NCBI GenBank assembly: GCA_024220525.1
Contig: JAMYWO010000168.1
Span: 40,151-91,531 of the forward strand
Reading direction: 5' to 3'
From: Cochliopodium minus
Taxonomy: Eukaryota > Discosea > Himatismenida > Cochliopodiidae
DNA: 51,381 nt
Shown: positions 1,758-26,790 of the stretch, one piece after another
Layout of the letters: each line of letters begins with the position of its first letter
Numbering within the stretch: the first letter of the stretch is position 1
Translations under genes and position numbers: made by a program
Notes under the pieces: generated by a model
Told to the model about the DNA's origin: nothing
Databases searched by the model: none
What the model saw: only the letters and a program-made list of their open reading frames with translations

Positions 1758-3636
1758 TTAATAATAATCATCATAATCATCATCATAATACTTCGGTTTG
1801 CAGTTAGGATACTTTTCACAAACAAACTTCTTCTCCTTCCCTTCGGTATCTACAACCCTCTCAAAGGTGGGATTTCCACAAGTAGGACAGCAAGCTCTGG
1901 GCTTCTCTTCAAGCTCTTCTTCGGTCTTTTTGACGGTCTGTCCAAAGAGTGAGCTTCTGTCATACCAAAAGTTGGAGCTTTCTATCATTTTCTTGAATGC
2001 TTTTTGTCTTTGGTTTTCCTTTTGAAAAAATGAAAATAAAAAATGAATGTATGAAAATAATTCAAAAAATGAAAAATAAAAGAAAAACAATTTAAATAAA
2101 AATAAAAAATAAAAATAAACAAATAAAAAAAATTTAGAAACAAAAATAAAATAAAACTTCAAATAATAAAATAAAATTTTTACAGAAGGTCTTGAATTGT
2201 TGTTCATTGAATAATCTTCAACTTTTCTCTTTTTGTTGTCAACATACCTAACAGAACCAATTCCTAATAAATTTAAAAAATTGATTCAATATTAATAATT
2301 TTTTAAAAATTCAAAATTATTTTTTTATTATTTTTTTGTTAATTTTATTTTATTTTATTTGTTTTTTTTTTACCTCCTCCATCGTTTAAGAACAAACACA
2401 AACCTTCATTGGCAGAAGCGATACCTGCAAATTTAAGTTGGAAGGAGATTCTGTCAACTTTGCTGACCACTTTCCCATCCATCCTCCCAGGCTTGACTTC
2501 TGCGATATAATTGGAAGGAATCTGTACATCATCTTCATTACCGTGGACCACTTTGTATTCAGTAAACTAAAAAAAAAAAAAAAATCAAAAATTATCTAAA
2601 AAAATCAAAAAAAATTAAAAATAATTTTAAAAACAATAATTTTTGATATTCTTAATTTTTTAAATTGAATTAAAAAAAAATTTTTATTTTGTTTCTTACT
2701 TTGAGTTTGTTGTCCTTTGTAATTTTTCCCAAAAATTTTGTGACAACTTGACTTTCTGGCCATTCTATATTGAAAAGATAAAAAAAATTTTAAATTTTTC
2801 CGTTATGAAACTTTTTTTTGCGCCAAAAAGTTTCTAATTTTTATCTTACCCAATAATCCTTCAGCAACATCTGCATTCCTTGTGATGATGATCATATTGA
2901 ATGAAAATTCATCATTTTCCTTCTCATTATGAAAGATACATTTTCCTGTCCACTGTGATCCTCGCATCAGACTGTCTATGTTATTTGCTCCTTCTTCCTC
3001 TTCCATATCTCCTTTCTCTTCATCTTTCTTGCCTGATAAAGATAAATTTAACAGCATATCTGTCACTGCCATCAACGTGTTCTCATTTTTATCGTTTTTC
3101 TTCATTATGAAAAGATATAATATTGGATGTGTTTTCCTCTCATTTGCTACCCATTCTATTTTTAACAATAAAAAAATATATCGTTTAAATTTTCAAAATA
3201 GTTTATATATTGAAGAATATTAACTAATGATGAATAGCAAATTAAGTGGATAGATTAAATTTCGATGTCAGACTCAGATAAAGATTTATTATCTATGTAA
3301 ATTAATTATCTTTCATTATGATGAAATTATGGAAAAAATTTGTGAATTTTTTTACCCAATGCATTCATTAGATCTTCATTTGATGCAATTGTCACCTAAA
3401 TTTGAATTAATTTATTTTTTTTCAAAATTTATTTTTCTTTATATCCATGATAGATTTACCATATCTCCTTCATCGTCTCTATACTTTATTTGAGATAGTT
3501 TATCATCGAAATCATCGTACATTTTCTTGAATATTTGGACTAATTCATCAAAACAAATATTATCTTGCAATTTGAATCTCCTTATATCATCTGTAAAACT
3601 TGCCTTTATGTTTATAAAATTAATATTAGGCTTCAT
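1758..3636 (-). CDS. PB1-domain protein with beta-rich middle module and topoisomerase-type C4 zinc ribbon
   Basis: Seven exons join in frame to 373 residues: 3460..3636, 3356..3395, 2850..3155, 2700..2764, 2374..2566, 2184..2263, 1758..2018. Residues 1-80 form a PB1 domain: basic/hydrophobic start (FTDDIRRFKL), then the acidic OPCA-like stretch YRDDEGDMV and the ending SNEDLMNAL, as in p62/NBR1-type scaffolds. The middle (about 115-265) is beta-rich, with SQWTGKCIF, a KFLGKI strand, the box FTEYKVVHG, IPSNYIAEV, and MDGKVV; it resembles lipocalin-like barrels of the W-x-G...EY...G type. A KKRK cluster could be a nuclear signal. The C-terminus has CCPTCGN...FVCEKYPNCK, a C4 ribbon like those at the end of topoisomerase I, then an Asp/Tyr tail. 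Function is unknown; PB1 implies heterodimerisation, the ribbon possible nucleic-acid binding. I know no standard family with this order. Confidence 0.82.
2819..2838. promoter_or_regulatory. E2F-like motif TTTTTGGCGC (reverse strand), inside PB1 gene intron 3
   Basis: The + strand reads GCGCCAAAAAGTTTCTAA. The reverse complement begins with the E2F/DP consensus TTTGGCGC. A near-identical copy lies at 26088..26104 upstream of the DUF3291 gene. Placement in an intron makes a regulatory role uncertain. Confidence 0.3.
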
Positions 3637-3750
3637 ATTTTTTTTTTATTTATTTTAATTTTCAAATCAAATAAAAAAGAAAATTATATATTCAAAATAT
3701 TTACAAGAATAATTTTAAAAAAATGAACAAAAATAATATCAACAAAAACT

Positions 3751-6700
3751 TTAATTTGTTTTAGGATTGATATTCCTAAATTTTTTAACAATATCTATCA
3801 CCAATGATAATTCATTGTTGATTTTACTTGGCAAATGAAGTTTTTTGATTCCTAGAGAAAGATTATATAAATTGTTGACCGCTAGTTGAAGTTTGTTGTC
3901 ATCCACATCTAGCAGTTTGATATAATGTCCTCTGTAATTGCAAAGTTTGTTGTATAGATCTCTTGCTTCCTCATTTTTAAAAACATTAGTGTAAACTTCG
4001 TTGACCAAAGCCAAAAGATTTGAAGCTTTTTTAGCTGTAGAAAAAAAAGTAAGAAAACAAAAATTAAATAAAAAAAAAATTTCTGATGAAAAATTATGAT
4101 ACCTTGAATAGGATCGTTAGTGAAATTATCTGGATGATTTTCTCGAGTAATTTCCCTTCTTTTCTTCGTAATTTCGTTGATATCTGACTCACGAGATACA
4201 CCAAAAAGAGTGTAATAATCATTTTCTTCAGTGAGAGTGGTGAGCTCTTCGATGTAATCTTCTTTGCTTCTTTCTTTAACTACCACTTGTTGTATATTGT
4301 TGGGAATAGTAGTTTTGATATCTTTTTTTAATGGAGGAAGGTTCTTTTTTGGAGGAAAAGTTTTTTTTGGAAGAGGAAGATTTTTCTTTGGAGGAAGTTT
4401 CTTTAATGGAGGAGCAAAATTTTTGGTAGGAAATTGCCTTTTGTAAGGAGGTTGAGTGGAGTCAACATTGTTATTTTCTATTACTATGTCATTAGAAGAA
4501 GGAGAAGGAGAAGTTTTATTGTTGAAATAATTGTTTATATTGAAACTGTTGTTGATATTGATGCTTGTGTTTGCATTTGTATTTGTGTTATTTTTTAGAG
4601 CGGACAAATTTACAGAAGCTCTGTTGTTATTTGTATTTTCTACATTTTTGACAGGAGAGAGGTTGACAGAAGCCCTGTTGCTATTTTTTAGAATCGGAGA
4701 TTTGTTTTTAACTAAAAAATTTTTGTTGGGATGGTTGAAATGGTTGTTGATGTTCTTCACCAAATTTGGCGAAGTGCTGTTAGAAGGAGGAGTGTTTTGT
4801 CTCAAATAAGGAGGAGTGACTTTATTATCACTATTAGTATTCTCCTCATGATTCACTCTTAAATTAACAGATGTATTGGTATGACTAACATTTTCGTTGG
4901 AAGAAATTTCTTCCTCTTTTTCTACGACAACGAAATTTCTTTCGATTTTTCTTTTCGCATTCTCTTCTTCCTCCTTTTGTAACCTAAGTTTGTCTCTCAT
5001 AGAAAGGATTTTAGGGCTCTCCTCTTTAACCCTCCTTTCCTCGTTCTCCTTCCTCTTCCTTTCTTCCTCCTCCCTCATCTTCTTCTCTTCCCTCTGCCTC
5101 TTCTCCTCCATCTCCCTTTGCTTCTTCTCCTCTTCCCTTTGCTTCTTCTCCTCTATTTCCCTCTGCTTTTTTTCTTCTTCTCTTTTTTTTTCTTCAGTTT
5201 CTCGTTGTCTAATTTTTTTAAAAAAAACAATTAACATTTAAATTTAAATTTTTTTTACTTTATTTTTCATAATTTTTTAAATGATTTTTATTAATTGAAA
5301 AAAAAAACCTTTTTTCTTCGATTTCTCTCCTTTTCCTTTCAAGGGTTTCCTTTTGTTTTTTTTCATTTTCTTCTTTATCTCTTATTTCTTGTTCTTCTTT
5401 TTGTCTCCTTAATTTTTCTCTCATTGAATATTTTTCCTTTTAAACAATAAAAAATGATAAAAAATAATAAAAAATTAAAAAAAAAAATAATAAAAAAATG
5501 ATAAAAAAAAAAAAATTATAAAAAGTAAATTGCTTTTATTTTTACTTCAAACTCGTCTTCTTGAATCTGTTCATCAGTTTGGTTTGGACCCCTTCCAATT
5601 TGTTTTTCAGGTAAAATGGTGACATTTTTGTTTCTTTTTAAATCTCTAAAATGAAACAATAAAAATAATTGAAAACAAAACAATCAAAAAAATGAAAAAA
5701 GAAAAAAAAAATGAAATATTAAGAAAAATAATCAAAAATAAATAAAAAAAATGAAAATAAAATAATCAAAAAATAATCAAAAAAAATGAAAATTTTTTAC
5801 TCTCGTTTATAAATTTGATTGCACATTTCATCATAGTCAAGACAATCAGTATAACCTATGTAATCATCATCCCCACAAGGCTCGAACTGAGGCAAGGGAG
5901 GGAAATTTGCGTTGGTGGTGATTTTGGAGTCGATGAAATCGTTCAGGTCTTTTTCTTCATCCAACTCTTTGACGCAAGTGAATATTTTGTTAAAACAAGA
6001 AAGATACTCCTTCACACCACTTTGTTGAGTTCTAAAAATAATAATTTTTTAAAATTATTTTTATTAAATTTTAGAATTATTTTAATTTTTTTTATTGAAA
6101 TCTTAAATGTTCATATTTAAAGTTTCAAATATTATAATCTTTTTGTATTGTACTCTTAAATATTTTTCTGATTGTAATTAATATTTTTTACTCAACATTA
6201 ATTTAATTTTTTTTAAAAAATTTTTTTTAAACAAAATATTTTTTAAAAAATTCAAAATTTTATTTTTTAATTTGGTATTAATTTTGATTATTATTTTTTT
6301 TTTTTTTACACGATATATTTTTCAAGAGAATTTTTGATGATCATCATCCTTTCCTCTTCCCACTCTTGGAGTTCCCTCAGAACTTTGGGCATCACATGCC
6401 TGAAATAATCATTTTGGATCTGTCTACATCTAAAAAAATATTTGAAAAAATGTTGAACATACAAAAATAAAAATTAAATTTAAATTAAAAATCTAAAAAA
6501 ATATAAAAAAATGTTTAAAATATTTAAAAAAATAAAATAACCCGTCAATGGATTCTTTGTATTTGGAAATAGAGTCTTGATGATCTTTGTCAAGAGACTT
6601 CAATTTGTTGGAAAGAGTAGTGGTGTTTTTCTCGCTGTACTCTTTCTTGACGGATTCTATTGTTTGGCATACCTTTTGGTACTTTATTTTGAACGTTTGT

Positions 6701-7811
6701 ATCTTTTGCAAAGATGTGTTGTATTTGTTGATCCACTCTCTTCCTTCAATAATGCTCTGTAAAAAATTTTTTGAATATTGAATTTATTTATTATTGTTTA
6801 TTTTAATTTTATTTTAAAAAATTTTAATTTTCATTTATATTTATTTGAATTTTATTTCTATTGCACAAAAAAATTTTTATTGTTTTTCTTATTTTCATTT
6901 TTATTTTTATTTTCAAAATTTTTAACTCTTGAAACTTTTGATCTTATTTTTATTTTTATCTTTTATTTTAATTTTCTAAATATTTTTCTTTTTTACTTGT
7001 TTGAATGTAGAATCTTTCTTTTCAAAGAATTGATTGATTGGATTGAGAATATCGTTGGTGATTTCCTTCGCAAAGTTCTGATGTATAATGGATCTAAATT
7101 GGTAAAAAATAAAAAATGAAATTCTGATTTGATTATTTCTGATTTATATTAATTTCTTTTGAATTATTATATTTGATATTTAAAAAGGTTATATTAAAAT
7201 ATTATTTTAAACCTTTCATTGATCTGATTTTTGATCTGATTCCATGCCATCTCGAAGGATGGCGATATATTAATTATTTTGTTGCTCGTCACTTTGCTCA
7301 TCAGAAATTTGACGAGCACATTCGATTCGAATTTGGCGGATTGGCTTTCTATCAGCTTCTTTAACTCTTTTGAATAATTCTCTTCTATAGTGATGAATGA
7401 TTTCCAAAAATCTGAACAGAATTTCAGCACTTCTTTTCCATCTTCCAATTTCTTCTGTATGGTATCAAAACCATTTTCCTTTGATTGGAAAATATAAAAA
7501 ATAATTCAATCAAAATAATTCAGAAGGGAATCAATTCATCTTATTTATGAAGATATTTTAAATCAATAGATATGCTTTTTATTTAGAAGATATATCATTA
7601 TCATTTCATGATTAGCTTGACATTAAATGCATATTAAATTATAAGACTTAATAACGAGTTAAAATGCATATAATGAATTGATTATTTAAAAGTAATTAGA
7701 TGGCATTTGCCTTTAAGGATATAAATTGTCCAGTACATAATAAATTTGAATTTTTCGTTATAAATTTGGATATAGATTTACAATGCAGCTGAATATCTGG
7801 AATTCTGACAT
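3751..7811 (-). CDS. F-BAR domain protein with long coiled coil, Asn-rich linker and C-terminal DnaJ (J) domain
   Basis: Ten exons join in frame from ATG 7811 to TAA 3751 (858 residues): 7782..7811, 7213..7478, 6997..7093, 6542..6756, 6310..6429, 5801..6031, 5546..5645, 5309..5436, 4103..5208, 3751..4034. Residues about 5-300 are an F-BAR domain: ENGFDTIQKKLEDGKEV, EENYSKELKKL, then helices with SIIHQNFAKEITNDIL and ELQEWEEERMMIIKNSLEKY, the typical last F-BAR helix. Residues 355-470 are an E/K/R coiled coil. An Asn- and Pro-rich linker follows (many NN, PPKK). Residues 726-800 form a J domain with DYYTLFGVSRES and an intact HPD (ENHPDNF), split by the last intron. F-BAR domains bind and bend membranes; J domains recruit Hsp70. 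Auxilin-like clathrin uncoating is an analogy only, since the J sequence looks canonical. The 30-base first exon is the least certain part. Confidence 0.85.
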
Positions 7812-7955: not shown

Positions 7956-8326
7956 TCATTTGTTCTTCTTCTTTTTATTAATTATATTTTCGTTACTGTT
8001 AGTTTTAGAAGATCCATTATTCAAAAGGTTGACACTGGTAGTCTTGATCTTCTCAAGTAACTTTGTTGAAGTTTCTTTCAAGTCTCTTTTTTGTTCTTCA
8101 ATGATCATCTCCACAGCAGAAGCGAGACCACTTTTTTCTCTCATGGATTCACCATATAACTAAAAAAATAAAAAATAAAAATAAAAAATAATAAATAAAA
8201 AAATAAAAATAATAAAATAATAAAATAATAAAAAAATAAAAAATAAAAAATAAAAAATAAAAAATATAAATAATAAAAAATAAAATAATAAAAATAAAAA
8301 TAACAAAATAATAAAATAATAAAAAT

Positions 8327-8362
<36 letters not shown>

Positions 8363-11275
8363 AAATAAAAAATAAAAAATAAAATTAAAAGAATGATTAC
8401 CTTTTTCATGTGAGGCTTTTCTACAAATTGTGCAAATAAATAATTGGTTGCCTGAGCGATAGCAGCCAAGAAAAACAAAGTGTAAGATTCTGACAATAAA
8501 GCAATACCATAAAAACCGGCAAAACCTTCAAAAAAATAAAAAAAAAAATTATTTAAAAAATCATTAAATATAAAAAATAATTAATTAAAAGTCAACAATT
8601 AAAATATAAAAGCAAACAAAAAAATAAAAAAAAATTACCAGTAATAGAATCGGGGTTGTTCAAGTAACGATAAATACCCTTATAACTTAATGAAATAGAT
8701 TTGTTTTCCAAGAAAAAATCTCCGTAAAAAAATCCAAAGTCTCCAACCACTTCGTAGGTAGAGTAAGAGGAGTAGGCGTTCAAAATGATCAAGAGGAGTC
8801 CGATGACCTGCTTGAGGAAATATTTGTTGAAGCCATAAATGGTCCTAAAATTAAATAATAATAAAAAATAAAAACAAAAACAAAAATAAAAAATTTAATT
8901 TTTAAAAAAAATAAAGAAAAAAAAAAGAAAAAAAATAAAAAAAAATTTAAATTAAATTAAAAATTTTAAAGTAAAATTAAAAAAAAATTTAAGTACATAT
9001 AAAAAATTTTATAAAAAATAAAAGAAAAAATTGAACTAAAAAATAAAAAAAAATAAAAATTAAAAAATTTTAATCAAAAAAAATTAAAAATAAATTGTGA
9101 CATAAAAAATAAAAACTGATAAATTTTTTTACCAGATATCAAATGAAATTAATTTAAAAGCTGCAACAGAAAAACTGACCCATTGCATGGTGAGACTAAG
9201 ATTAAAAATGGATTTCCAGTTTTGGAAAGCCTCCTCTGACCCATTCTCTGAATTGAAATAGAAGCTGAAAAGCTTATCTTTGTTTTGTCTGTACAAGATG
9301 TAAAACAAGAAAACATGGAAGGCTCTCCAAACAATCACTTGGCTAAAATAAATTTAACAAAGTGAGTTCAAAATAAAAAAGGTATTTTAATTGAAAAAAT
9401 TTTTTATAAAATAAAATTTATCAACTTTTTAAGATTAACTATAAAAATCAAAACAAAAAAATTTATTTGAAAAAAATAAATTTGTTTCAAAAAATAATTA
9501 ATTTGAATAAAATATTGAAAAAAAAGAGAATAAAAAATGGAAAAATTTTCAATCAAAAAATAAAAAAAAAATTTAAAAGAATAACTTTCAAAAAACAAAT
9601 AATTAAAAAAAAAAAATGTTCAAAATTTTTTACAAAATGAAAAAATTCTTGGGCAAATCAAAAAACACTTGCAGAACGTTGCTGAGCAAGATGATGACAT
9701 AAAATACATCCGAAGCTTTCAAGATGCTGAAGGTTTTGAAGGCGATGAGATATTTTTTGAGGTAACTTCTCTCGTCCTTCTCCTTTTCGCTGACTTCCAA
9801 TTTGTTGTAGAGTTTGTTGATATGTGGGTCCTCGACGAAATAAAGGAAAACAAATTGAAATGCGTGAGCAATTAAACTAATAAAAAAAAAATAATAAAAA
9901 TGATTAATCATAAAAAAAAATAATAAATTAATAAATTAAAAAAAAAACTAAAAATAAAAAATGAAAAATGAAAAAAATTTTTTTACCCCACATATAATAC
10001 AGTATATGATTTTGTAATGAAAGATGCTCCATAGTAGAATAGATATCCTTTAAAATTAATAATATTTTAAATTCGAAATAAGAAAAGGAGTGTTTTTGGA
10101 ATGTTTACCTGCAGTGTACATAGGATGAGGTATAATGTTAAAAACTCTTTCGAATGTCAAGTTCCCACTGTCATATAGGAAAAAAAAGTCTCCCCAATCT
10201 AAAAATATAAATAAAAAAAAATCAAAAATAAAATTGAAAAAATAAAAATAAAAAAATAAAAATAAAAATAAAAAAAATAAAGAAAAATATTTAAAAATTT
10301 TTTACACCATGCAAAGTCTTTGATTACGTTGTATGCATCTTTTTTGGCCCACAAAGAAAGTAGGATTAGAATGACTCCGAAGGAGTAAGACAAAACTTCG
10401 TAGAAGGAGAACTCCTTTGGGAGCTCGAAGAATCTGAGGGCGAAGGCGAGGTAGGAAAACAAATCGTGAGACAAAACTATAGTCGCTATTGTTCTGAAGA
10501 TCAACCATGCATTGAACTCTGGAGGGAAGTTCTATTATTTTTTTTGAAAAAGAAATTGGGAATGTAAATTTTGAATACATAAATTAAAATTAACAAAAAT
10601 AAAATATGAAATGAAAAATTTTAAAGAAAAAATTTTTGTTTTTTTAAAATTAAAAAGATTAAGCTCTGATTGAAATTTATAACAAATAAATTTAAAACTT
10701 TTCCGATCAAAAATTGTTGTTTAAAAAATGATCAAATAAAGTATCAATGTAAATCAATCAGAATGAAAACGATTTCTATGAAAAGGAAAATTTAAATTTT
10801 AAAAAAAATTTTTTAAATATTTCAAATCAATATAGAATTCCACATGAAAATTCAATAAAGTTTATATCAAAGTGGATCTTATAAATAAAAAAATAGATGA
10901 AAAAAAAAAAATTTTTACCGCCATTTCAAAATTATCATCCTCTATATCGTGCTTCAAGATTTTATTTATAGTGTTATACATCTTGGGATTGATCTCCTTG
11001 TCAAAGTTTAAATAATTCTTGAATATTTCTACAAATTTGAATGCTGTGGATTGTTTGTAGAGGATATATCCGATCCCAAGATCATATGCCAATCTCCAAA
11101 ATAAAAATGTGGCTATAAATAACCAATCTGGGAGATTTGTGAATAATAAAAACAAATGTATGAGGCATGTTGCTTCCAATATCTCTTTAAATTCCCATTT
11201 CCAAAGCTGATATAATAGTGGTGAAAAATGAATGGGAATTTTAGTTTTGGGCATATTGAATCCTATCCAATTCAT
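7956..11275 (-). CDS. CHO2: Phosphatidylethanolamine N-methyltransferase, CHO2 type
   Basis: Membrane enzyme that methylates phosphatidylethanolamine towards phosphatidylcholine with SAM, in the ER. Nine exons join in frame to 573 residues: 10919..11275, 10306..10531, 10109..10198, 9987..10047, 9634..9876, 9133..9342, 8639..8844, 8401..8525, 7956..8159. Family hallmarks: [40 protein letters not shown], the joined KDFAWYWGDFFFL block, [36 protein letters not shown] and [11 protein letters not shown]. Many hydrophobic segments fit a multi-pass protein. It is shorter than yeast Cho2 (about 870 residues), mainly through short loops and C-terminus. The C-terminal tail is Lys/Asn-rich. Splicing at 10306 uses the GTAAAA donor, not the overlapping GTGTAA, because only that keeps the WYWGD block. 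Introns are A-rich on the + strand; intron 8 (8160..8400) is nearly pure AAAAAT repeat. Confidence 0.93.
8160..8400. repeat. A+T microsatellite filling CHO2 intron 8
   Basis: About 240 bases of AAAAAT, AATAAA and ATAATAAA units, bounded by a GTAAT donor and an AG acceptor on the minus strand. Confidence 0.9.
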
Positions 11276-20717: not shown

Positions 20718-21832
20718 TTAAACTTTCTTGAAAAGTTAAATCAAAAATTCTTTGTATTTAATAGTTTGTTTATCTATCAATTAAAAAAAAAAAAAAAAGA
20801 TGAATTAATTTTTGATAAATCCTCCCAAATTAAAAAATATCCTCCCAAATAAAAATTATTAAAATCTAGGTGATGGTATCAACAGCTAAAATAACTCATT
20901 TGAAGTTAATTAATAATCAATAGAAAAAAAAAAATTCAAAAGAAAATTCACATCAAAATGGAGGTCAAAACTATCGATCCAATCTGAGCATAATTACAAA
21001 TAATAAGAACAAAGATGATGAGATATTATTTCAAGATGTAAGTCAAATAATAAATTTATTCAAAAAAGATTATTCTTATATTTTTCAACATCTCAAATAT
21101 TAAAAATAAAGAAATCACTTCTATTCTTTATCTTAAACTAAACAAATGTATGTGAAGAAAAAATTTATAAATTAAATCACATAAAACTTTATATCTAATT
21201 TATCAACTATTTGAAAATATATTTTAATTACGATATAAAAAAGAGATAAATAGTTAATTACAATTCAATTTGATAGAATAGAATTTGAATTGTTTTTGAG
21301 ATCAAAGATTTCAAACCAATAAAATTTAAATTAAATTTAATATCCCTCAACACAATTTCCTCAATTCATATCAATATTTAACCACCAGATCTAATCTTCT
21401 ACAAAATGAACGAAGAAAATTTCGGAGTATTTCTTTTATTTTTTCATATAATATTTACAAATCAAAAATATTCAATAGAGAAGTTTATAAATGCCATATT
21501 ATGTGAAAATGTGATGATTAACCTGAATTTTTGGATCTCTTATTGATTTTAAGAAAAAATAGAAAAGAGAAAACCAATTAAAAAAAAATAATATAAATTA
21601 TTATAAAAATAAATAAAAAAAACTTAAAATTTAAAAAAAAAAAGGTAAAAAAAAATTATTTAGAAAAAAATAGAATCTTATAAACGATGAATAATTTCTA
21701 AATGAATCAAATTTCAAATTATATTTTAATTATTTAAAGGAGCAAATATAATAATTATATTTATAAATATTTCTCTTATAAAATATTTTAAATATACTCG
21801 AACATATTTTTTATTATTATTTTTTTTTTCAG
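20718..21832. other. 1.1-kb A+T-rich intergenic region with possible 5'-UTR intron
   Basis: No coding region was found. A long T-run ending TTTTTTTTTCAG stands immediately before the ATG of the next gene, exactly like an intron acceptor, and a strong donor GTAAGT lies at 21039..21044. A 5'-UTR intron of about 790 bases ending at the start codon is therefore plausible but unproven. Confidence 0.35.
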
Positions 21833-23473
21833 ATGATGAAAATTTTGATTTTAATTTTCGCAATCTTGGCAATATGCTCTGCCACAATGAAAGATGAAAT
21901 AATCCATAAAACAGAACAATTGAAATTGGTAAGAGATCAATTGAACCATGCAAGAACTGCATTCTCTGAGTACCACAATGAAGCAATCAAATCTCATCAA
22001 CACGTACAAGAATTGATCCGTAAAAAAAATACCGATAGAAATGCTCCAATCAACAGAGCAACCCAACAATGTTTGACTGCAATAACCCAATTGACAACAA
22101 CATTCACAAATGTAACATGTTCAACCTATATAACCTTGTTTTTCCAAACTGGACAAACAACTGAGGTCAGATTAACCGCAACAACCAATTTCTGTAACAA
22201 TTGTCAAGGACTTTTTGTTTCATCAGTCCAAAATGTGGTCTCACAATGTAATTTGACTGATATCTCATTAGAAACCGCAAGAGCAGTTGGATTCTATCCA
22301 AAATTCTTGTGCTCCAAAGATAATAGCGGAAAATTTTGTGCTAATGCATTGGCTGAAGCTGCCACCAGCGCACCAGCTGATATCACCCAAGTCACCCAAG
22401 CTCAACTCGATACCATCTGTAACACCTGTGTCATCACTGCTTTGAATATCCTCGTACAAGGAAAGGCAGTTTCTCCACTTTATTATAACGCTGTAGTCTC
22501 ATTGGGAGGAATCTGTGTTAAATATGGAGGAAAATATTGTATCCTCAATTTGAAAGATACCATCAACAAAGCAATTGATATTGGTCAAAAATTCTCCACT
22601 GGTGGAGATGTCTCCTCTGGGGATTTCCAAACCCTTTTGGATTCATTCTGTGCACCATGTTATCGTATCCTCATTGCTAGACTCACCCTCGGAAGCGATA
22701 TTGCAGCTATCACTGTTCTTCAAAACTTTAATGGAATCGGTCCATTGTGCAGAAAGAATCAAAAAAAGGAATACTGTATTGTGAAGATCTTCTCAATCGC
22801 TAAACCATACTTGTCAAATCCATCCAGCTTGCCTTGCAAAGAGGCTGATTTCACTGCAAGTACTAACGGAACCTTCACTTGTTCCAATGACTGCTCCGAA
22901 GTCTTCAAGAAAGTGATCAACGATGGAGGATGTTGTTGGGCTGTTTTGGTTGATACCATCTCTGGATCTGGTCCTGGAAGCAACTCTCAAGAAAAGGATA
23001 ACATCTACAATGCTATCAAAACTTGTGCTCCTGGCATCACCATTCCTGATCCTTGCCCATCTACTGCCTCTGCAACCATCACCATCACCTATACCAATCT
23101 TAACATCGATTGGGTCAATTCTAACAAAGCTATTTTCATCCAAGCTGTTTTGGCTGATCTTTCCATCACTATCGGAGGTTACGATTCTGTTAACAACAAT
23201 ACCATCACTGTTTCCACCTCTGTAAACAAGAAAAGAGCTACCACCTCTACTACTGTTGCTGTCTCAAGCGTAAACGTGCCTGCTACTGCTGGTGGTACTT
23301 TGTCTGTTTCTAACACTAACTGTATCAATGTTTGTAGCACTGCTCCTGCTAACGATCCTTCTGCTTCTGTTACCGTCTCCTCCTCCACCTCCAACTTGAG
23401 TATTCAAAGTTCTTCCAACTTGATTACTTATAGTTTTGCACTTTTGTTTATCCTTTCTCTCTTTTTCTTTTGA
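21833..23473 (+). CDS. Secreted, probably GPI-anchored Cys-rich repeat protein
   Basis: Single exon, 546 residues. The N-terminus is a clear signal peptide (MMKILILIFAILAICSA) and the last 22 residues are hydrophobic after a Ser-rich stretch (ITYSFALLFILSLFFF), the layout of a GPI-anchor signal. The ectodomain has about four Cys modules with a C-x2-C or C-x3-C core: FCNNCQGLF, TICNTCVITAL, SFCAPCYRIL, TCSNDCSEVF. Modules 2-4 are joined by a KYC/EYC linker Cys, so this looks like a tandem Cys-paired helical repeat. Many potential N-glycosylation sites (NVT, NLT, NGT). The C-terminal 130 residues are Ser/Thr-rich. Codon use in the second half is much richer in C-ending codons than neighbouring genes, suggesting high expression. 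Ligand unknown. Confidence 0.85.
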   Translation: MMKILILIFAILAICSATMKDEIIHKTEQLKLVRDQLNHARTAFSEYHNEAIKSHQHVQELIRKKNTDRNAPINRATQQCLTAITQLTTTFTNVTCSTYITLFFQTGQTTEVRLTATTNFCNNCQGLFVSSVQNVVSQCNLTDISLETARAVGFYPKFLCSKDNSGKFCANALAEAATSAPADITQVTQAQLDTICNTCVITALNILVQGKAVSPLYYNAVVSLGGICVKYGGKYCILNLKDTINKAIDIGQKFSTGGDVSSGDFQTLLDSFCAPCYRILIARLTLGSDIAAITVLQNFNGIGPLCRKNQKKEYCIVKIFSIAKPYLSNPSSLPCKEADFTASTNGTFTCSNDCSEVFKKVINDGGCCWAVLVDTISGSGPGSNSQEKDNIYNAIKTCAPGITIPDPCPSTASATITITYTNLNIDWVNSNKAIFIQAVLADLSITIGGYDSVNNNTITVSTSVNKKRATTSTTVAVSSVNVPATAGGTLSVSNTNCINVCSTAPANDPSASVTVSSSTSNLSIQSSSNLITYSFALLFILSLFFF

Positions 23474-25867: not shown

Positions 25868-26220
25868 TTCTCTATGAGGAAATGAAAAAAAGTCTTATTT
25901 CTTATTTTCCTGTATTCTTTTGCAAATATAATTTAAGTATTGATGGAGTGCAGTTTTAAGGTGGATTAATTCGAGCTATTTTTATTTTATATTTTTTTAT
26001 ATAATCAGTATATTTAGGAGATGTGATTCTATTGAAAATCAAAAGTCTTATTCATTTTTCTTCAATGTATAAAAAGAAATTTTTTTAGCGCCAAAAATTT
26101 CTAAAATTTTATATTTATTGAATTAGTTTTAATATATGGAAACAAACAGATCAATTGGAATTTGAAAATCTTATCACAAAAGGAGATTTAATTAAAAAGA
26201 TTTTCACAAAGATATTTTTG
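25868..26220. promoter_or_regulatory. Divergent promoter region, SLC19 / DUF3291, with E2F-like site
   Basis: 353 bases between two head-to-head genes. At 26088..26104 the + strand reads GCGCCAAAAATTTCTAA, whose reverse strand contains the E2F/DP consensus TTTTTGGCGC, 117-133 bases before the DUF3291 ATG. This is one of very few G+C clusters in the intergenic DNA. Confidence 0.45.
26088..26104. promoter_or_regulatory. E2F-like site
   Basis: GCGCCAAAAATTTCTAA on the + strand; shares the core and the flanking TTTCTAA with the copy at 2820..2836. Confidence 0.4.
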
Positions 26221-26790
26221 ATGGGAAATATAATAAAAAAGATGGAAAAGGAAGTAAAAGTTGATATCAAAGATGAATGGAGATTGGCATGTTTCGTAAC
26301 CACAAATACAATTATGCCATGGTCGCATGATTGCAATAGAGAATTGAAGGAATCAATAGAGACAATCCACGGCGAATTGAAGGATAGCAAGGGATTATGC
26401 AATGCAAAGGAGATATTGGATATCCCATCTGACAAGATGTTGAATGGAAAACAATTATGTGGAATATCTAAATGGAGATCAGTTGAAGATTTGGAGAGAT
26501 TCGTATTGAATGGCACCCATGGCAAATTCTATGCAAGAAGGGGTGAATGGTGTAAGAATCCAGAGAAATACAGTTATGTGTTGTGGTGGGTCAAGAAAGA
26601 TGATCCTATACTCCTTGCCGATTCTATGCGTGCACTTGAGAGGCTTAGATTGAGAGGACCATCTATCAATGCATTCAATTTTGAGAAGAGATTTCCTCCC
26701 CCTATCACTACCCTCTCTGATATTTTGAAATTGTTGTTTTCTTGTATATTTTTTCTATGTATTATTATTTATGTTCTATTTATTCAATAA
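26221..26790 (+). CDS. DUF3291 domain protein with C-terminal membrane anchor
   Basis: Single exon, 189 residues from the ATG at 26221; the frame is open further upstream but without ATG. The second half matches DUF3291, a small alpha/beta domain known mainly from bacteria and some eukaryotes and unassigned in function: ISKWRSVEDLERFVLNGTHG (a WxSVExLxxFV pattern), FYARRGEWCKNP, YVLWWVKKDDPIL, ERLRLRGPSINAFNF. The last 25 residues are a single hydrophobic helix (FSCIFFLCIIIYVLFIQ), suggesting a tail-anchored protein, an addition I do not know from bacterial members. The N-terminal 30 residues are Lys-rich. Direction and the E2F-like site upstream suggest its own promoter. Confidence 0.85.
   Translation: MGNIIKKMEKEVKVDIKDEWRLACFVTTNTIMPWSHDCNRELKESIETIHGELKDSKGLCNAKEILDIPSDKMLNGKQLCGISKWRSVEDLERFVLNGTHGKFYARRGEWCKNPEKYSYVLWWVKKDDPILLADSMRALERLRLRGPSINAFNFEKRFPPPITTLSDILKLLFSCIFFLCIIIYVLFIQ

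Follow-up and report, generated by a model that had tools for sequence, protein, structure and literature searches.

A single gene of Cochliopodium minus, lying on the minus strand of the window (the whole stretch of 51,381 nucleotides analysed here, from the contig that we designate C168), very probably encodes one protein in which an F-BAR domain is joined through a long charged helix and an Asn-rich linker to a J domain close to its C-terminal end. The usual partners of F-BAR domains are SH3, kinase or RhoGAP domains. From its domains the product would be a cytosolic F-BAR protein with a C-terminal J domain, acting in Hsp70-driven disassembly at a membrane, a reading to which, taken as a whole, we give about an even chance of being right.

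Rebuilding the gene from splice sites and reading frame gave ten exons, running from 7811 to 3751 and comprising 2577 nt, which specify 858 residues and end at a TAA stop (Table 1). Coordinates, exon count and length all agree with the initial annotation, which had followed ten exons in frame from an F-BAR domain to a J domain. All nine introns are of the GT-AG type and are 68–303 nt long, with a GC content of 0.07–0.21 compared to 0.27–0.38 in the exons. Introns of Acrasis kona, by comparison, are reported to measure 9–95 bp (PMC11589745). In eight of them the continuing frame runs into stop codons; the remaining one, intron 9 (68 nt), is free of stops but shifts the frame. Codon usage was scored with a model built from 68 long frames (16,483 codons) in stretches of the same genome, the target gene being left out. 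The claimed frame scored highest in nine of the ten exons (exons 2–10) and was the lowest of three nearly equal scores in exon 1 (30 nt), while all nine introns scored negatively in every frame.

Table 1. Features of the F-BAR/J gene (positions are those of the window)
Feature	Position	Strand	Evidence
Entire coding region (858 residues in ten exons)	3751..7811	minus	Frame, GT-AG sites, trained parser
Exons 1–10	7811-7782, 7478-7213, 7093-6997, 6756-6542, 6429-6310, 6031-5801, 5645-5546, 5436-5309, 5208-4103, 4034-3751	minus	
F-BAR domain, residues 12–277 (exons 2–6 plus introns between)	5929..7475	minus	Pfam FCH and FBP17 alignment
Exon 7 (5645-5546) and the flanking introns 6 and 7, which carry the one-gene reading	5437..5800	minus	Lowest forced-stop costs (11.6 and 11.7 nats)
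E/K/R-rich single alpha-helix, residues 357–486 (exons 8–9)	4938..5427	minus	Charge-pair pattern
Asn-rich linker whose Pro-rich end is basic, residues 516–690	4326..4850	minus	Composition
J domain, first part, from residue 726 (HPD at 4136-4128)	4103..4220	minus	Pfam DnaJ
J domain, part encoded past intron 9, up to residue 793	3949..4034	minus	Pfam DnaJ; intron 9 forced stop 63.4 nats
65-residue tail behind the J domain, 42% hydrophobic	3754..3948	minus	Frame and composition

A search of the protein with the Pfam FCH and DnaJ models, proposed earlier as a check, placed both domains above their cut-offs (33.8 and 28.0 bits; cut-offs 27.8). The FCH match covers residues 13–104 (E 4.2e-8), and together with an alignment to the F-BAR domain of FBP17 (formin-binding protein 1, PDB 2efl; E 2.7e-7) it extends the homology over the whole helical region. 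Weaker F-BAR alignments were obtained to GAS7, Fes, Imp2, FCHO2 and PSTPIP1, nine distinct PDB sequences being matched in total. When the full protein was scanned against Pfam at E values up to 1, nothing besides FCH and DnaJ was found, and thus no SH3 domain and no RME-8 N-terminal region. FBP17 and CIP4 carry HR1 and SH3 domains. The F-BAR part of our protein can be aligned to that of FBP17, but what follows it is different: first an E/K/R-rich helix, then the Asn-rich linker and finally the J domain, with no Pfam SH3.

The initial annotation had called the charged segment behind the F-BAR domain a coiled coil. Residues spaced i/i+4 in this segment form 63 opposite-charge and 7 like-charge pairs, a net of 56 compared to a mean of 0.7 in shuffled sequences, and none of 2000 shuffles reached this value; hydrophobic residues take up no more than 22% of the a/d positions in any heptad register. 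Given the charge pairing and the low hydrophobic share, we rejected the coiled coil and read the segment as a single alpha-helix, whose 130 residues would span about 20 nm if fully helical (at 0.15 nm per residue). The charge pattern runs across the boundary of exons 8 and 9 and so supports their junction. The linker that follows had also been described as Asn-rich, and its composition (Asn 24%, Pro 13%) bears this out.

The J domain was likewise recognised at the outset, with an intact HPD motif, and both points hold: the Pfam DnaJ match (E 2.4e-6) covers the profile over its whole length (1–63 of 63), HPD is present at residues 754–756 and helix II is basic (ITKKRREITRENHPD). The score is low, only 0.2 bits above the cut-off, and a six-frame DnaJ search of the assembly (44,654,751 bases in 598 contigs), which returned 30 matches at E ≤ 0.001, did not list this domain, since it is divergent and split by intron 9. 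The low score and the absence from that list would also fit a single gene whose J domain no longer drives Hsp70, serving as a binding surface only or decaying, yet the kept HPD, the basic helix II and the end-to-end profile match make such a loss of activity unlikely. A second profile, which we built from eight of the 30 genomic matches picked as near full length, also aligned to the protein end to end and scored 30.4 bits. We read the J domain, by its sequence, as complete but divergent, and not auxilin-like.

This last point bears on the suggestion, made earlier, that such a protein might uncoat clathrin vesicles. Auxilin and GAK (DNAJC6 and DNAJC26) have a PTEN-like module, clathrin/AP2 motifs and a J domain; they are membrane-associated, as is predicted for our protein, and share with it the position of the J domain near the C terminus. 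The fusion could accordingly be a clathrin uncoating factor that replaces auxilin, the F-BAR domain standing in for the usual membrane-binding part, and an auxilin J segment used as a query against the genome gave only weak matches (best on C156, E 9.8e-4), although this search sees single exons only and so does not establish that an auxilin gene is missing. However, the best PDB matches of the J part are DNAJA3 (2.9e-5) and DNAJC3 (4.2e-5), and among the 40 matches listed for it (E up to 1) no chain is named auxilin or GAK. Clathrin-box-like motifs occur once (LLDVD, residue 805) where 0.50 would be expected by chance, and neither NPF nor DP[FW] is present in the protein. The tail behind the J domain is a further difference from auxilin and GAK. 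An auxilin identity is thus unsupported by J-domain similarity, by clathrin/AP2 motif counts or by the genome search, and we regard replacement of auxilin as improbable, leaving the uncoating suggestion with little in its favour. Two SH3-ligand patterns were also absent from the F-BAR/J protein.

The weak point of the F-BAR/J reading is its one-gene status, because the neighbouring genes are so close. Upstream, a PEMT-like gene (7956-9342, minus strand; Pfam phospholipid methyltransferase, E 3.6e-31) ends 144 nt before the ATG at 7811, and downstream the ATG (3636) of a PB1-domain gene (3636-3356, minus strand) lies 114 nt past the F-BAR/J stop. The PB1 match reaches E 9e-13 when read from ATG 3636 and 4.3e-11 without the first 11 residues. 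With neighbours at such distances a gap of intron size is no proof of an intron and can equally be a gene boundary. The sequence might therefore contain two adjacent genes, an F-BAR gene that stops at 5797 (or reads through exon 7) and a J gene that starts at ATG 5625 or 5424. The start context of ATG 5625, used in the best split, is strong, at the 95th percentile of training starts, compared to the 7th percentile for the gene's own ATG at 7811. Across 20 predicted gaps between same-strand genes (37 stretches, 167,728 bases) the median distance is 196 nt.

An untrained gene parser joined all the exons, but a split between the F-BAR domain and exon 9 cost it just 1.7–4.0 nats, about equal to the 1.6–4.0 nats at 3751, where the gene presumably ends. 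Since these margins are so small, splice-site, start-context and length models were trained without supervision on 37 stretches of this genome (167,728 bases in total), from which the target gene was excluded, and the training was then repeated under a rule that disallowed stops in split codons. The trained parser reproduced exons 1–9 exactly; exon 10 it began at the right position but ran on into the downstream gene. Splitting the F-BAR domain from the J domain was penalised by 10.3–12.5 nats over nine settings, and by 10.5–12.5 nats over the nine settings of the repeat. Forcing a stop in each of introns 1–9 in turn cost 17.5, 34.9, 17.3, 21.4, 23.6, 11.6, 11.7, 32.3 and 63.4 nats. As a scale for these values, 285 other joins made by the parser (both strands, unverified) have a median margin of 18.8 nats and a tenth percentile of 2.9. 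The best split, moreover, has to read exon 7 in a lower-scoring frame (codon score 19.4, compared to 27.2 for the claimed frame), and the signals of the two critical introns are of the commonest types: introns 6 and 7 both begin with GTAAAA, the leading donor in the trained set (22 of 73), and intron 7 ends in AAAG, the leading acceptor end (24 of 73). The donor GTAAGT is rare in the same set (4 of 73), and the splice signals of this genome look unusual.

We calibrated the trained parser on seven gene ends with homology support of varying degree. Four were placed correctly, namely those of the PEMT-like gene (7956), uL13 (12873), a CSTF2-like gene (28406) and an F-BAR-SH3 gene on contig C104. 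At the other three the parser made false joins: at 3751 (0.2–2.4 nats), at a Rab-like gene on C38 (1.0 nats), whose end we take from its CCII terminus, and at an F-BAR-SH3 gene on C205 (4.9 nats, its exact end being uncertain). With three false joins in seven the parser over-joins, a point in favour of two genes. The F-BAR/J margin exceeds those of all recognised false joins, in a small sample of seven ends. An eighth case, a DUF3291 frame on the plus strand (26122-26790, E 1.7e-17), where the parser prefers splicing past the stop at 26790 by 10.3 nats, was kept out of the seven because the Pfam domain ends before both alternatives and does not decide between them. It indicates that margins near ten nats can occur even where a stop is at hand; should 26790 be a true stop, false joins would have margins nearly as large as that of the F-BAR/J gene. 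Weighing the small untrained margins and the over-joining against the trained penalty, the codon scores and the splice signals, we judge two separate genes quite improbable and favour a single F-BAR/J gene with high, though not full, confidence. The one-gene claim of the initial annotation is thus the reading favoured by the trained parser, with the qualification that it hangs on the two introns with the lowest forced-stop costs, 6 and 7.

Elsewhere in the window, a plus-strand frame of 563 residues (21782-23473) is rich in Cys and Ser/Thr, has hydrophobic ends and sits in the kilobase where the GC content of the window peaks (0.40). It had no Pfam match at E ≤ 0.001, and its product looks like a surface protein. 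The uL13 protein of the window has strong PDB matches (60 of 76 listed), the best of which seem to be fungal and animal, Giardia and Trichomonas seemingly ranking low.

Searching the assembly for FCH gave five matches, the F-BAR/J gene and loci on C205, C104, C98 and C38. The genes on C205 and C104 also carry C-terminal modules, but here these are SH3 domains (E 7.1e-16 on C205; E 1.4e-15, in two stretches, on C104) instead of a J domain. A direct search with the F-BAR part found, besides its own gene, the C98 locus as the closest relative (26% identity, E 6.3e-8) and a weak match on C35 (0.155). Behind the F-BAR domain on C98 come an Asn-rich segment and a piece resembling RGS that scores exactly at the Pfam cut-off (23.9 bits; positions 3112-5477 of the analysed part of C98). 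An F-BAR/RGS fusion is possible there, though the parser put a stop between the two parts. On C38, the single downstream piece that was looked at gave no match. Stretches of 10 kb around each of these four loci showed no J domain, the best match there having an E value of 0.057. As a positive control the same search recovered exon 9 of the F-BAR/J gene (E 4.5e-6); its other half, in exon 10, came out at only 0.79, which shows that half J domains can be missed. The J part on its own matched four other places in the genome (E 0.006–0.044), and no second F-BAR/J gene was found in the assembly.

We found no relatives in viral contigs (21 pattern matches, none confirmed, and no match in another pattern search) or in prokaryote genomes (73 pattern matches, none confirmed); such searches, being viral and prokaryotic, say little about protists. 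The initial annotation knew of no F-BAR protein with a J domain, and none came up among the open-licence PMC papers listed for this subject, as judged by titles and the openings of abstracts. This agrees with the earlier statement as far as open-licence papers reach, and the architecture may exist unremarked elsewhere.

F-BAR dimers bind curved membrane, J domains activate Hsp70, and SNX1 is a BAR protein. Going by the domains, the F-BAR/J protein would bring Hsp70 to curved membranes, and we infer that its likeliest role is to recruit Hsp70 to F-BAR-coated membrane for dismantling the scaffold, or what the scaffold has assembled. Here the F-BAR dimer would coat a curved membrane, with the helix and the flexible linker holding the J domain off the bilayer. 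The J domain would then trigger ATP hydrolysis by cytosolic Hsp70 at the membrane, and Hsp70 would pull apart nearby assemblies, most likely the F-BAR scaffold itself together with bound coat or actin-regulatory factors. The outcome would be a self-limiting membrane scaffold, in which one chain does the work proposed for two partners, SNX1 and RME-8/DNAJC13.

RME-8/DNAJC13, likewise a J protein, recruits HSC70 to a membrane and is proposed to act there in the turnover of SNX1 and clathrin: its interaction with HSC70 is described as regulating the turnover of both on endosomes (PMC12404652). DNAJC13 binds PI(3)P via a PH-like domain, and dismantling of DNAJC13 oligomers by HSC70 is offered as a speculation by the authors (PMC12404652). 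The two systems differ in their membrane contact, a PH-like domain in DNAJC13 and the F-BAR domain in our protein, and in that RME-8 and SNX1 are two proteins acting in trans whereas the F-BAR/J protein is one chain. A bolder version, which we put forward tentatively and think rather less likely than not to hold, is a self-dissolving scaffold whose growth raises the local density of J domains until Hsp70 dismantles the coat, a counterpart of SNX1/RME-8 that evolved separately. If true, this would be a new F-BAR architecture.

Hsp70 acts at membranes via separate J proteins, through which clathrin is removed and SNX1 turnover has been proposed. A J domain fused in nature to a curvature-binding scaffold would supply genetic evidence for scaffold assembly and Hsp70-driven disassembly acting on one object, and it would offer a compact protein for testing whether the lifetime of BAR-type coats is under the control of chaperones.
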